Under the pieces are notes generated by a model, which saw only the letters and a program-made list of their open reading frames with translations, was not told the DNA's origin and searched no databases. From Candidatus Omnitrophica bacterium CG11_big_fil_rev_8_21_14_0_20_41_12 (GTDB lineage Bacteria; Omnitrophota; Gorgyraeia; Gygaellales; Profunditerraquicolaceae), in NCBI GenBank assembly GCA_002796135.1, contig PCWB01000034.1:1-33197 (forward strand): DNA of 33,197 nt, read 5' to 3'. Each line of letters begins with the position of its first letter. Position 1 is the stretch's first letter. Shown here piece after piece: positions 28,946 through 31,857 of this stretch. The position numbers were made by a program, and so were the translations under genes.

Positions 28946-29019
28946 GGGCCCATAGCTCAGTTGGTTAGAGCAGGTGACTCATAATCACTTGGTCCGGGGT
29001 TCGAGTCCCTGTGGGCCCA
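28946..29019 (+). tRNA. tRNA-Ile2 (CAT anticodon, lysidine type)
   Basis: A 74-base cloverleaf. Acceptor GGGCCCA pairs with TGGGCCC and the discriminator is A. The D arm is GCTC/GAGC, the anticodon stem GGTGA/TCACT with loop CTCATAA, and the T arm CGGGG/CCCTG with loop TTCGAGT. Anticodon CAT could mean Met, but the anticodon arm and variable loop closely match Escherichia coli tRNA-Ile2, and pairs C4-G69 and C5-G68 fit recognition by TilS, which makes lysidine for AUA reading. It is not an initiator, having a paired G1-C72 and no GGG/CCC anticodon stem. No CCA is encoded. Elongator Met is the alternative. Confidence 0.9.
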
Positions 29020-29042
29020 GTATGTAACTATGGTGCTTTTGG

Positions 29043-29116
29043 GGGCGCATAGCTCAGTTGGTTAGAGCGCTACATTCACATTGTAGAGGCCATAGGTCCG
29101 AGTCCTATTGCGCCCA
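29043..29116 (+). tRNA. tRNA-Val (CAC anticodon)
   Basis: A 74-base cloverleaf. Acceptor GGGCGCA pairs with TGCGCCC and the discriminator is A. The D arm is GCTC/GAGC, the anticodon stem CTACA/TGTAG with loop TTCACAT, and the T stem ATAGG/CCTAT. Anticodon CAC reads the valine codon GUG. The T loop reads TCCGAGT, so position 55, nearly always U and converted to pseudouridine, is C here. No CCA is encoded. It lies 23 bases after tRNA-Ile2 and 21 bases before the next coding gene with no terminator between. Confidence 0.92.
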
Positions 29117-29137
29117 CTTAATTTATAAGGAGAGAAA

Positions 29138-29857
29138 TTGGCTACAGTTGATTTAAAAACGCAAATCGTCGCTTTAGTAAAACTCCAAGAGCTAGATAGT
29201 GAAATTTATGCTTTAAACAATGAAAAAACCGCTAAACCTCAAGAAATCAATGCGTTAGAAATTGTTTTTGAAAGTAAAAAACAGGGTTTGGCTGAACTTG
29301 AAAAAAAATCCCTTGAGCTGCAAAAAGAGCGTAAAGAAAGAGAGTTGGAACTTGGCAGTAATGCGGAGGCGGTAAAGAAGTTACAAGGCCAGCTGTATTC
29401 CTTAAAAACTAATAAAGAATTTCAGACTATGCAGAAGCAAATTGCCGATACTCAAGCCGACGGGTCGGTAATTGAAGAGAAAATATTGATTTCTTTTGAG
29501 GAATCGGATAAGATTAAATCTCAAATTGAACAGGAAAATTTGAAATTAAAAGATGAAGAAAAGGTTTTTACACAAGGAAAGAATAAGATAGAGCTACGCG
29601 TCAAAGAGATGGATGAACGTCTAAATCAGTTAGCGGTTCAAAGAAAACAGATTATCCCGGATATTGATCCTAAGATGCTGCTTGAGTATGAACGAATCCT
29701 TAACAGCCGGGACGGCCTGGCGATTGTTACAGTTAAGGGTAATTCATGCGGTGGCTGTAATATGCTGGTGCCCCCGCAGGTAATCAATTTAATTAAGATG
29801 TATGAGCATATTATTACTTGTGAGATGTGTAACCGCATTCTCTATATTAACGAATGA
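29138..29857 (+). CDS. Coiled-coil C4 zinc-ribbon protein (COG1579 family)
   Basis: A 239-residue protein. Residues about 10-180 form a long antiparallel coiled coil rich in Glu, Lys and Leu (for example LQGQLYSLKTNKEFQTMQKQ). The C-terminus carries a C4 zinc ribbon: C204 and C207 in GNSCGGCNMLVPPQV, then C228 and C231 in TCEMCNRILY. The family (COG1579) is predicted to bind nucleic acid, but its molecular role is not established. The start is TTG at 29138, supported by AAGGAGAG 4-11 bases upstream and by the family-typical N-terminus. It follows tRNA-Val and overlaps the RNase HI gene by four bases (ATGA). Linkage with RNase H and rnpB suggests an RNA-related role, by inference only. Confidence 0.88.
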   Translation: MATVDLKTQIVALVKLQELDSEIYALNNEKTAKPQEINALEIVFESKKQGLAELEKKSLELQKERKERELELGSNAEAVKKLQGQLYSLKTNKEFQTMQKQIADTQADGSVIEEKILISFEESDKIKSQIEQENLKLKDEEKVFTQGKNKIELRVKEMDERLNQLAVQRKQIIPDIDPKMLLEYERILNSRDGLAIVTVKGNSCGGCNMLVPPQVINLIKMYEHIITCEMCNRILYINE

Positions 29858-30282
29858 GCCATTTGAAAATTTATATTGATGGAGCTTCAAAAGGCAATCC
29901 TGGTCAAAGCGGAGCTGGAATTGTGATTTATCAAGACGGCCGTATAGTAAAAAAAATTTCAAATTATATCGGTACTGCTACGAATAATACCGCTGAATAT
30001 ATGGCTTTGATCTATGCGCTCGAGGAAGGTCTGCTTTTAAAAGCCAAGAGCTTAGAAATTAATACGGATAGCCAGCTTTTGGCCAGGCAATTAAATAAAA
30101 TTTATAAAGTTAAGCATGAAGGTATAAAAAATCTCTATAGTCGGGCAACACATCTTTTGACAGGTTTTGAAAAAGTAGTAATTAATCATATCCTCCGGGA
30201 AGAAAACGTCCTGGCGGATAAATTAGCAACAGAGGCGATTAAAAAGAAGCAGGCAGAATATGGCTGCCCTATTGTAAAATAG
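29854..30282 (+). CDS. Ribonuclease HI family protein, 3' end inside rnpB
   Basis: A 142-residue RNase H fold enzyme that cleaves RNA in RNA-DNA hybrids. Active-site residues are visible as Asp9 (IYIDGASKGNPG), Glu48 (NNTAEYMAL), Asp72 (NTDSQLL) and Asp122 (NVLADKLATEA). The absence of the long basic handle region places it with the short RnhA/YpdQ-type forms, so the name rnhA is tentative. The last 12 codons (KKQAEYGCPIVK) fall inside RNase P RNA: they encode the P1 5' strand, P2 region and P3 hairpin, and the TAG stop lies in the 3' strand of P3. The catalytic fold ends before this overlap. Its start is coupled to the zinc-ribbon gene by ATGA. Confidence 0.9.
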   Translation: MSHLKIYIDGASKGNPGQSGAGIVIYQDGRIVKKISNYIGTATNNTAEYMALIYALEEGLLLKAKSLEINTDSQLLARQLNKIYKVKHEGIKNLYSRATHLLTGFEKVVINHILREENVLADKLATEAIKKKQAEYGCPIVK

Positions 30283-30597
30283 GGAGGAAAGTCCGGGCTC
30301 CGGAGGATAGTGTAACGGGTAATCCCCGTCTCCTAAAGTGATTTAGGACGGACCAGAGCCACAGAGACGAGTCCAGTTCTTGCACGCAAGAGCTGGGGTG
30401 AAACGAGGCAATCTCTACATGGAGCAAGGCAGAATAGGAGACCAGCGCTGATCCGGCGCGTTAGGAGTTTTTGGGTATGCTGCTAAAGCTTGCGCGGTAA
30501 CGCGCTCGTTGAGAGGAATAGCCACTAATCGATGTCTGCCCGCAGGCTCTGCCCGCAGGCAGACATCAAGACAGAACCCGGCTTATTCTGCCTGCTT
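30247..30597 (+). ncRNA. rnpB: RNase P RNA, class A
   Basis: Catalytic RNA that removes tRNA 5' leaders. The conserved 5' core GGAGGAAAGTCCGGGCTCC (from 30285) and the 3' core ACAGAACCCGGCTTA (30571-30585) together form P4. P1 is a perfect 14-base pairing, 30247-30260 with 30584-30597, which sets the ends. P3 is a 7-base-pair hairpin, CCCTATT with AATAGGG (30267-30284). ATGGCTGCC (30260-30268) can pair with GGCAGACAT (30558-30566) with one mismatch as P2. The 5' 36 bases overlap the RNase HI gene. Between the P18 region and P4 3' strand lies an extra hairpin in the P19 position (30531-30567) containing a 13-base tandem duplication. Exact mature ends are inferred from P1. Confidence 0.96.
30535..30560 (+). 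repeat. 13-bp tandem duplication within rnpB
   Basis: TCTGCCCGCAGGC occurs twice in perfect tandem (30535-30547 and 30548-30560). With the flanks GATG and AGACATC it sits in a hairpin whose outer arms GATGTCTGCC and GGCAGACATC pair perfectly. A single copy would give a 10-bp stem with a CGCA tetraloop, suggesting that the hairpin grew by duplication. Confidence 0.9.
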
Positions 30598-30622
30598 ATT
30601 TAAAAACAAAAAAGGGGGAGTT

Positions 30623-31378
30623 ATGTCAGGTCACTCGAAATGGAAGACAAATAAGGGCAAGAAAGGTATTGCTGACGCAAAAAGAGGGGCAATGTTCACT
30701 AAAATTATTAAGGAGTTGGTTGTCGTCGCCAGAGATGGCGGAGGTAATCCTGATTCTAACCCCCGATTGCGTGCAATAATGCAGAAAGCTAAAGAATCAA
30801 ATATGCCTTCGGATAATGTGAAAATGGCAATCAAGCGCGGAACCGGCGAGCTACCCGGAGTAGTTTATGAAGCGGTAATGTATGAAGCTTATGGACCGGG
30901 AGGAGTGGCGATTTTAGTGGATTCTCTTACGGACAATAAAAACCGGACTACCGCAGAGTTACGTAATCTGATGTCAAAAAGAGGCGGAAATATGGCAGGG
31001 GCGGGAGCGGTGAGTTGGATATTTACACAGAAGGGTTATATTACGGTAGCTAAAGATAAAATTAAGGAAGATGAATTGATGAATATTGTTTTAGATGCCG
31101 GCGCCGAGGATATGAAGCATGATGATAATCTCTATGAGATCTTCACTGCTATTCAGGATTTAGAAAAAGTAAAAGCGGCCTTGCAAGAAAAAGGGATTAA
31201 ATGGGATGATGCTGAATTAACCATGATCCCTTCATCTACAATTAAGCTTGCCGGAAACGAGGCAAAGCAGGTTCTTGGTTTGGTTGAATCGCTGGAAGAG
31301 CATGATGATGTACAGCAGGTTTACGCTAATTTTGATATTCCGGATGAGATTATAAATGAGGTTGCTGGCCAGGAATGA
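30623..31378 (+). CDS. yebC: YebC/PmpR-family protein (TACO1-like)
   Basis: A 251-residue protein of the YebC family, long annotated as transcriptional regulators and more recently linked to translation of proline-rich stretches by YebC-type factors. The start at 30623 is chosen because the invariant MSGHSKWKTNKGKKG follows it; the frame stays open upstream to 30509, but that part is RNase P RNA. Other family blocks are AKRGAMFTKIIKEL, GNPDSNPRLRAIMQKAK, YEAYGPGGVAILVD, NKNRTTAELRN and GAVSWIFTQKGYI. A purine-rich AGGGGGAG lies only two to three bases from the ATG, a short spacing. The stop overlaps ruvC by ATGA, reproducing the widespread yebC-ruvC order. Confidence 0.95.
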   Translation: MSGHSKWKTNKGKKGIADAKRGAMFTKIIKELVVVARDGGGNPDSNPRLRAIMQKAKESNMPSDNVKMAIKRGTGELPGVVYEAVMYEAYGPGGVAILVDSLTDNKNRTTAELRNLMSKRGGNMAGAGAVSWIFTQKGYITVAKDKIKEDELMNIVLDAGAEDMKHDDNLYEIFTAIQDLEKVKAALQEKGIKWDDAELTMIPSSTIKLAGNEAKQVLGLVESLEEHDDVQQVYANFDIPDEIINEVAGQE

Positions 31379-31857
31379 TTATTGTAGGAATTGACCCTGC
31401 TTTAGCGATTACCGGCTATGGTGTAATTCAAGTCCAAGGGGCAACATTAACCGTAATTGAAGCGGGTATAATTCAGACTTCGCCAAAAGAGGCAACCACA
31501 AAAAGATTAGATAAGTTATACCGGGGGGTGCTTAAATTAATTACGGATACGCATTCAGATTGTCTGGTGTTAGAAAAAATATACTCACATTATAAACATC
31601 CGGCTACTGCTTGTATTTTAGGCCAGGCCAGAGGAGTGATCAGTTTAGCGGCAACCACTAAAGGAATACCGCTGTTTGAGTACGCTGCTACGCGCATAAA
31701 GAAAGCTATTGTAGGCAAGGGGTTGGCTTCTAAGGCTCAAGTGCAGGCAATGGTTGCTCACACGTTAAACTTAAAAAATCTACCGTCTTATATGGATGTT
31801 ACCGATGCTTTGGCATTGGCGATAACCCATAATTATATCAGTAGGTCAAAAATATGA
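31375..31857 (+). CDS. ruvC: Holliday junction resolvase RuvC
   Basis: Endonuclease that resolves Holliday junctions after RuvAB branch migration, 160 residues, usual length. Acidic active-site residues are Asp7 (VGIDPALAITGYG), Glu67 (LVLEKIYSHYKHP), Asp141 and Asp144 (MDVTDALALAI), equivalent to D7, E66, D138 and D141 of the Escherichia coli enzyme. The LGQARGVI and GKGLASKAQVQAMV blocks are family hallmarks. It is coupled by ATGA overlaps on both sides, to yebC and ruvA. Confidence 0.97.
   Translation: MIIVGIDPALAITGYGVIQVQGATLTVIEAGIIQTSPKEATTKRLDKLYRGVLKLITDTHSDCLVLEKIYSHYKHPATACILGQARGVISLAATTKGIPLFEYAATRIKKAIVGKGLASKAQVQAMVAHTLNLKNLPSYMDVTDALALAITHNYISRSKI

Follow-up and report, generated by a model that had tools for sequence, protein, structure and literature searches.

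Recurrent overlap of the RNase HI gene with the 5′ end of the RNase P RNA gene in Omnitrophota

The window, a stretch of 33,197 nucleotides of contig PCWB01000034.1 from Candidatus Omnitrophica bacterium CG11_big_fil_rev_8_21_14_0_20_41_12, carries on its + strand, in this order, genes for tRNA-Met and tRNA-Val, a cdsZ-like zinc-ribbon gene, rnhA, rnpB, yebC, ruvC, a ruvA-like gene and scpB (Table 1). The stop codon of the cdsZ-like gene overlaps the rnhA start by 4 nt. On the far side of rnpB, the yebC frame stays open over 30509-30622, 5′ of the likely start, and into the 3′ end of rnpB, so that in principle the two could overlap there as well. A yebC start at TTG 30509, inside rnpB, is allowed by the reading frame alone; ATG 30623, which has a purine-rich leader and gives a family match from residue 1, fits better.

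Table 1. Predicted features around the rnhA-rnpB junction (positions in the window).
Feature	Position	Strand	Evidence
tRNA-Met (CAU)	28946-29019	+	RF00005, ARAGORN
tRNA-Val (CAC)	29043-29116	+	RF00005, ARAGORN
cdsZ-like C4 zinc-ribbon gene	29138-29857	+	PF02591, PF24481; NF047363 match below curated cut-off
rnhA, RNase HI, 142 codons, stop TAG 30280-30282	29854-30282	+	ORF, Pfam, solved RNase H relatives
rnpB, class A RNase P RNA; outer P1 pair at 30247, Rfam span 30249-30599	30247-30599	+	RF00010, fold
rnhA/rnpB overlap: P1 5′ strand, P2 region, most of P3	30247-30282	+	sequence, ORF, RNA alignment
P1 5′ strand AAGCAGGCAGAATA, pairs with TATTCTGCCTGCTT near 30584-30597	30247-30260	+	sequence, RNA alignment, fold
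P3 hairpin CCCTATT-GTAA-AATAGGG, 30267-30273 paired with 30278-30284; contains the rnhA stop 30280-30282	30267-30284	+	sequence, RNA alignment, fold
yebC, directly 3′ of rnpB	30623-31378	+	PF01709, PF20772, NF001030

The rnhA product matched RNase_H (PF00075) at residues 4-129 with 61.2 bits against a cut-off of 25.8, and RVT_3 (PF13456) at residues 9-128 with 77.5 bits against 21.6. Residues D9, E48, D72 and D122, which we take to be the acidic catalytic DEDD residues of RNase HI, are invariant in 21 aligned relatives. By its domain score and these residues the product is predicted to be an RNase HI, and it resembles the family (PF00075/PF13456, and archaeal and halophile-type relatives in the PDB) over the whole domain with the DEDD residues aligned. 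It differs from these relatives in its last 11 residues, which are encoded by RNase P RNA sequence.

The rnpB gene scored 171.1 bits with RF00010, against a gathering score of 100, over model positions 1-367, the whole model, and it is the only RF00010 match in the genome, an assembly of 1.22 Mb in 57 contigs. P1 is a perfect 14-bp helix that joins the two ends of the RNA and was present in the minimum-energy fold both of the RNA by itself and of the RNA preceded by 60 nt of rnhA sequence. The score and the closure of P1 identify the predicted transcript as a class A RNase P RNA, like other bacterial members of RF00010 in covering all 367 model positions, in its closed P1 and in its conserved core. 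Two differences from that family were seen: the 5′ strand additionally encodes the end of a protein, and there is an insert near the 3′ end in which CTGCCCGCAGGC is doubled. The two copies stand in tandem at 30536-30560, within a hairpin insert in the 3′ part of rnpB; a dispersed repeat was ruled out, the genome holding just those two exact copies.

The rnhA stop lies 36 bases, exactly 12 codons, inside rnpB when counted from the outer P1 pair, so that the overlap runs from rnhA codon 132 through the stop codon. From the pairing of P3 it follows that the TAG sits in the 3′ strand of this hairpin. The original prediction had placed the last 12 rnhA codons on the P1 strand, the P2 region and P3, with the TAG inside P3, and these coordinates agree with an rnhA reading frame that ends within a full-length class A RNase P RNA gene. 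The same 36 bases would thus serve both an RNA fold and a protein tail, as had been proposed. The RNase H domain ends at about residues 128-131 and the Pfam match at residue 129, and the whole domain is therefore made ahead of the overlap. An alternative P1 that would let the RNA start after 30282, the arrangement named in the original prediction as incompatible with an overlap, was not found. Among 50 Omnitrophota loci with an overlap of at least 10 nt, the P1 5′ strand gave higher pairing scores with the 3′ arm of the same RNA than with the arms of other families (median 29.25 against 15.0, Mann-Whitney p = 5e-28), and P1 pairing is therefore not chance complementarity.

For comparison, 179 rnpB loci of the phylum were examined in three batches (51 + 28 + 100); in one batch 164 of 193 genomes matched, and the loci were taken among the matches listed. 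A directly 5′ rnhA was found at 132 of 137 loci in the class to which the window belongs and at none of the 42 in the rest of the phylum. Of the five exceptions, three lie at contig edges (L221, L002 and L145), one has no rnhA (L177), and one is the second rnpB of a genome, G192, 576 nt away from an rnhA (L141). The other rnpB of G192 (L254) stands directly behind rnhA, and both genes are full-scoring; in this single draft genome, duplication and contamination are both possible. Where at least 1300 nt of upstream sequence could be read, a tRNA-Met(CAU) gene, a tRNA-Val(CAC) gene or both stood 5′ of cdsZ-rnhA-rnpB (91 of 125 class loci), and RNase P substrates therefore share a neighbourhood with the RNase P RNA.

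The position of the rnhA stop relative to the Rfam start of rnpB ranged from -304 to +118 nt over the 132 class loci. It lay inside rnpB by at least 3 nt at 57 of these loci, by at least 10 nt at 50 and by at least 60 nt at 25. Within the genus of the window alone all states are represented, with stops between 38 nt ahead of the Rfam start and 71 nt past it. Separation of the two genes in relatives, which had been named as counting against the overlap, is thus half borne out, the genes being separate or overlapping by less than 10 nt at 82 of the 132 loci and overlapping at the other 50. A kept, functional arrangement is not supported by these loci, close relatives of the window being among the 82, and neither overlap nor frame is conserved: at the conserved GGAAAGTC element, the 50 loci overlapping by at least 10 nt use three frames, 24, 14 and 12 times. 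The resulting RNase HI tails, KQAEYGCPIVK, SRQNVAALCK and EESPSSEG among them, are read in different frames and are unrelated, and some relatives have none.

The length of the linker between the ADKLA motif and rnpB had a median of 24 nt in overlapping loci (n = 49) and 47 nt in the others (n = 80; p = 1e-13), three loci without the motif being left out, and a shorter linker thus accompanies overlap. In the window it is 20 nt. On a FastTree tree the overlap state was clustered, with at least 26 changes where 300 shuffles gave 40 on average and never fewer than 33, which indicates that overlap is inherited for some time yet often altered. The rnhA stops peak at 12-16, 29-34 and 66-84 nt, where the rnpB sequence offers stops. 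In the true frame the commonest bin was 60-90 nt (21 of 57), and it also held 34 of the 107 binned stops in the two alternative frames and 27 of the 72 binned next in-frame stops of non-overlapping loci. As unused frames and non-overlapping loci share the peak, a specially selected overlap of 66-84 nt was rejected as the main reading. True stops nevertheless came somewhat sooner than stops in the alternative frames (median 33 against 68, p = 0.007, relatedness uncorrected), so that overlap length may be under mild selection, and in one clade (f27) five of six loci keep a long overlap (68-69 nt) in a single frame.

Beyond Omnitrophota, where 60 of the 80 named loci were scanned, rnhA was found directly before rnpB in records labelled Deltaproteobacteria, Nitrospirae, Chloroflexi, Planctomycetales, Latescibacterota, Aerophobetes and others. 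Five phylum-level samples were drawn, each centred on a genome with rnhA-rnpB adjacency; 132 matched loci were fetched, 131 of them with more than 350 nt upstream, and two fragments (L358 and L359) were left out. The two genes were adjacent at 77 of the 131 loci (24/30, 16/30, 11/11, 17/30 and 9/30 by sample), and, in the same order, 0/24, 3/16, 11/11, 5/17 and 0/9 of the adjacent loci overlapped by at least 3 nt. It follows from these counts that the neighbourhood is old and that the overlap recurs. The third, Aerophobetes-type sample (L346-L357), in which the overlaps measure 4-72 nt, is the best place to seek a selected overlap.

A search of the + strand over 29000-31500, including the interval between rnpB and yebC, gave no intrinsic terminator, and promoter-like sites were not in excess in the window (3 against 5.5 in shuffles). 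Since neither a terminator nor an excess of promoters in the window or class was seen, co-transcription of rnpB with rnhA would be the simplest reading of the sequence. The opposite arrangement, in which a promoter inside the 3′ end of rnhA drives rnpB so that the two products never meet, draws on a TATAAT just before P1 at some loci (e.g. in G112, G114 and G161) and on the 42 outgroup loci, 24% of which have a promoter-like site over score 9 before rnpB against 10%, 12% and 0% in controls. Within the class, however, the share is 14%, against 14%, 11% and 3% in controls, and so equals that of one control window, and the window offers a single nearby candidate, TTGAAA-16-TATCCT, among sites fewer than in shuffles. 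A promoter at the junction was accordingly dropped as a candidate, enrichment over controls being absent in the class and in the window, and independent transcripts are considered an unlikely explanation.

A ribosome that completes RNase HI would, as the original prediction had it, come to rest on P1-P3; at the rnhA stop it would cover P3 and reach the conserved element behind, and one molecule could therefore not serve both uses simultaneously. It is physically plausible that the two uses interfere with, or exclude, each other on a single molecule. In a regulatory coupling, ribosomes ending rnhA would sit over P1-P4 and prevent the RNA from folding or from being trimmed at its 5′ end, each transcript would give either RNase HI or RNase P RNA, and RNase P output would be tied to translation. 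The overlap geometry in the window is real, most of the 25 loci with an overlap of at least 60 nt read through the conserved CR-I element, and every adjacent Aerophobetes-type locus overlaps, all of which would suit such a coupling. We nevertheless regard it as improbable, because most class loci lack an overlap of at least 10 nt and near relatives differ, the state has changed at least 26 times with three frames in use, and no adjacent locus overlaps in two of the other phylum samples. A function of the rnpB-encoded tail itself, for example in binding the RNA that encodes it, would be in keeping with the lysine-rich residues that several members show ahead of the overlap, but the tails of congeners vary in frame, length and sequence or are missing, which makes any need for the tail very unlikely and a tail function scarcely credible. 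A conserved tail was ruled out on the same frames and tails.

We favour, with a probability of about 0.72, a recurrent and tolerated capture of stop codons at a packed junction, at which the genes are partly co-transcribed and the RNase P RNA is trimmed, over a conserved switch. On this reading rnhA and rnpB would be old neighbours, lying end to end in a tRNA-cdsZ-rnhA-rnpB-yebC cluster that is probably at least partly co-transcribed. The linker behind the RNase H domain would have shortened until the rnhA stop was lost, and reading would then have run on into rnpB to the next in-frame stop, in the window the one in P3. The rnpB sequence would be held by RNase P function alone, any sequence sufficing as an RNase HI tail, and the capture would be tolerated because the domain is complete before the overlap and any tail will do. 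Translation of the longer transcript would yield RNase HI; the source of RNase P RNA would be molecules that ribosomes have left and that have been trimmed back to P1, and the stability of this RNA would let it accumulate. Pure drift fits less well with the earlier true stops, the single-frame long overlaps of some clades and the clustering on the tree, and the Aerophobetes-type loci are more uniform than drift suggests.

Both rnhA and rnpB are ordinary family members, and overlaps of coding with RNA genes are in general of a known kind. The rpmH and rnpA genes of Thermus overlap, and there too an RNase P-related gene overlaps its neighbour; two coding regions are involved in that case, whereas in the window a coding region lies over the gene for the RNA subunit. 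Protein genes and tRNA genes overlap in compact genomes such as those of mitochondria, where a coding end is likewise shared with a structured RNA and the conflict is resolved by processing or by the use of different molecules. Here, in contrast, the RNA is a ribozyme, and the overlap reaches 118 nt in relatives. In the literature searched, which included the accessible part of PMC2518516, no description was found of a protein gene that overlaps an RNase P RNA, though absence is not thereby proved; nor was any report found there on Omnitrophota in connection with RNase P. The 5′ domain of an essential ribozyme doubles as a protein end in many uncultured bacteria. It follows that gene callers that forbid overlap of RNA and coding sequence will truncate one or the other, and that a promoter start should not be taken for granted where the RNase P RNA begins. 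The relatives, whose stops range from upstream of P1 to beyond CR-I, form a natural series, a ready-made experiment on the coexistence of translation and RNA folding.

During the promoter search, a recurrent GTTCTTTGA was met before rnpB, the general form of which, G[T/C]TCTTT, also appears in 16S leaders; 14 genomes of the phylum, that of the window among them, carry such leader sites. A boxA matrix was built from the 16S-leader sites and the last 60 nt before rnpB were scanned with a threshold of 8.5. With relatedness uncorrected, boxA-like sites were found before rnpB at 27 of the 42 outgroup Omnitrophota loci (controls 1, 1, 2 and 2; reverse strand 3), 38 of the 132 class loci (controls 14, 2, 3 and 2; reverse strand 7) and 18 of 30 loci in the phylum of G230 (controls 1, 5, 0 and 3). 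The phylum of G231 gave 3 of 30, and the three other samples gave 0 of 71. No such site was found within 60 nt 5′ of the rnpB in the window (best score 0.4), and the best score within 1500 nt, 6.2, was under the threshold.

According to the accessible text of PMC5725501, boxA is bound by NusB/NusE and opposes Rho, and the survey described there left non-coding RNAs out, as its authors state. Like the boxA of rRNA leaders and suhB treated in that text, the GTTCTTTGA upstream of rnpB matches boxA-like sites in 16S leaders of the same phylum; it differs in that the putative Omnitrophota boxA precedes an RNase P RNA, and the window is without one. We offer as a tentative and still doubtful reading that RNase P RNA may be a target of Nus antitermination in Omnitrophota and at least one other phylum, with a boxA just 5′ of P1 that would keep RNA polymerase moving along a ribozyme that is not translated. 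At loci with rnhA in front of rnpB, the last rnhA codons would include the boxA, and translation into rnpB might replace it in keeping Rho off, the overlap then being one of two alternative protections of transcription through rnpB and downstream. As alternatives, boxA and overlap did not separate: an overlap of at least 10 nt was present at 11 of 41 boxA loci and at 39 of 91 loci without boxA (Fisher p = 0.085), in a comparison in which boxA was called by regular expression (41 of 132) and which linker length confounds. No report on boxA together with rnpB or RNase P RNA was found in a literature search outside which most subscription journals lay. If this reading were true, rRNA and RNase P RNA would be under common transcription control and a joint control of ribosome and tRNA production would be directly testable, and this by-product may matter more than the overlap. 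Examples of the boxA-like GTTCTTTGA are found at outgroup loci L156, L206, L143 and L182 and, beyond Omnitrophota, at L286-L311; in the class, the boxA-like element often lies within the last rnhA codons.
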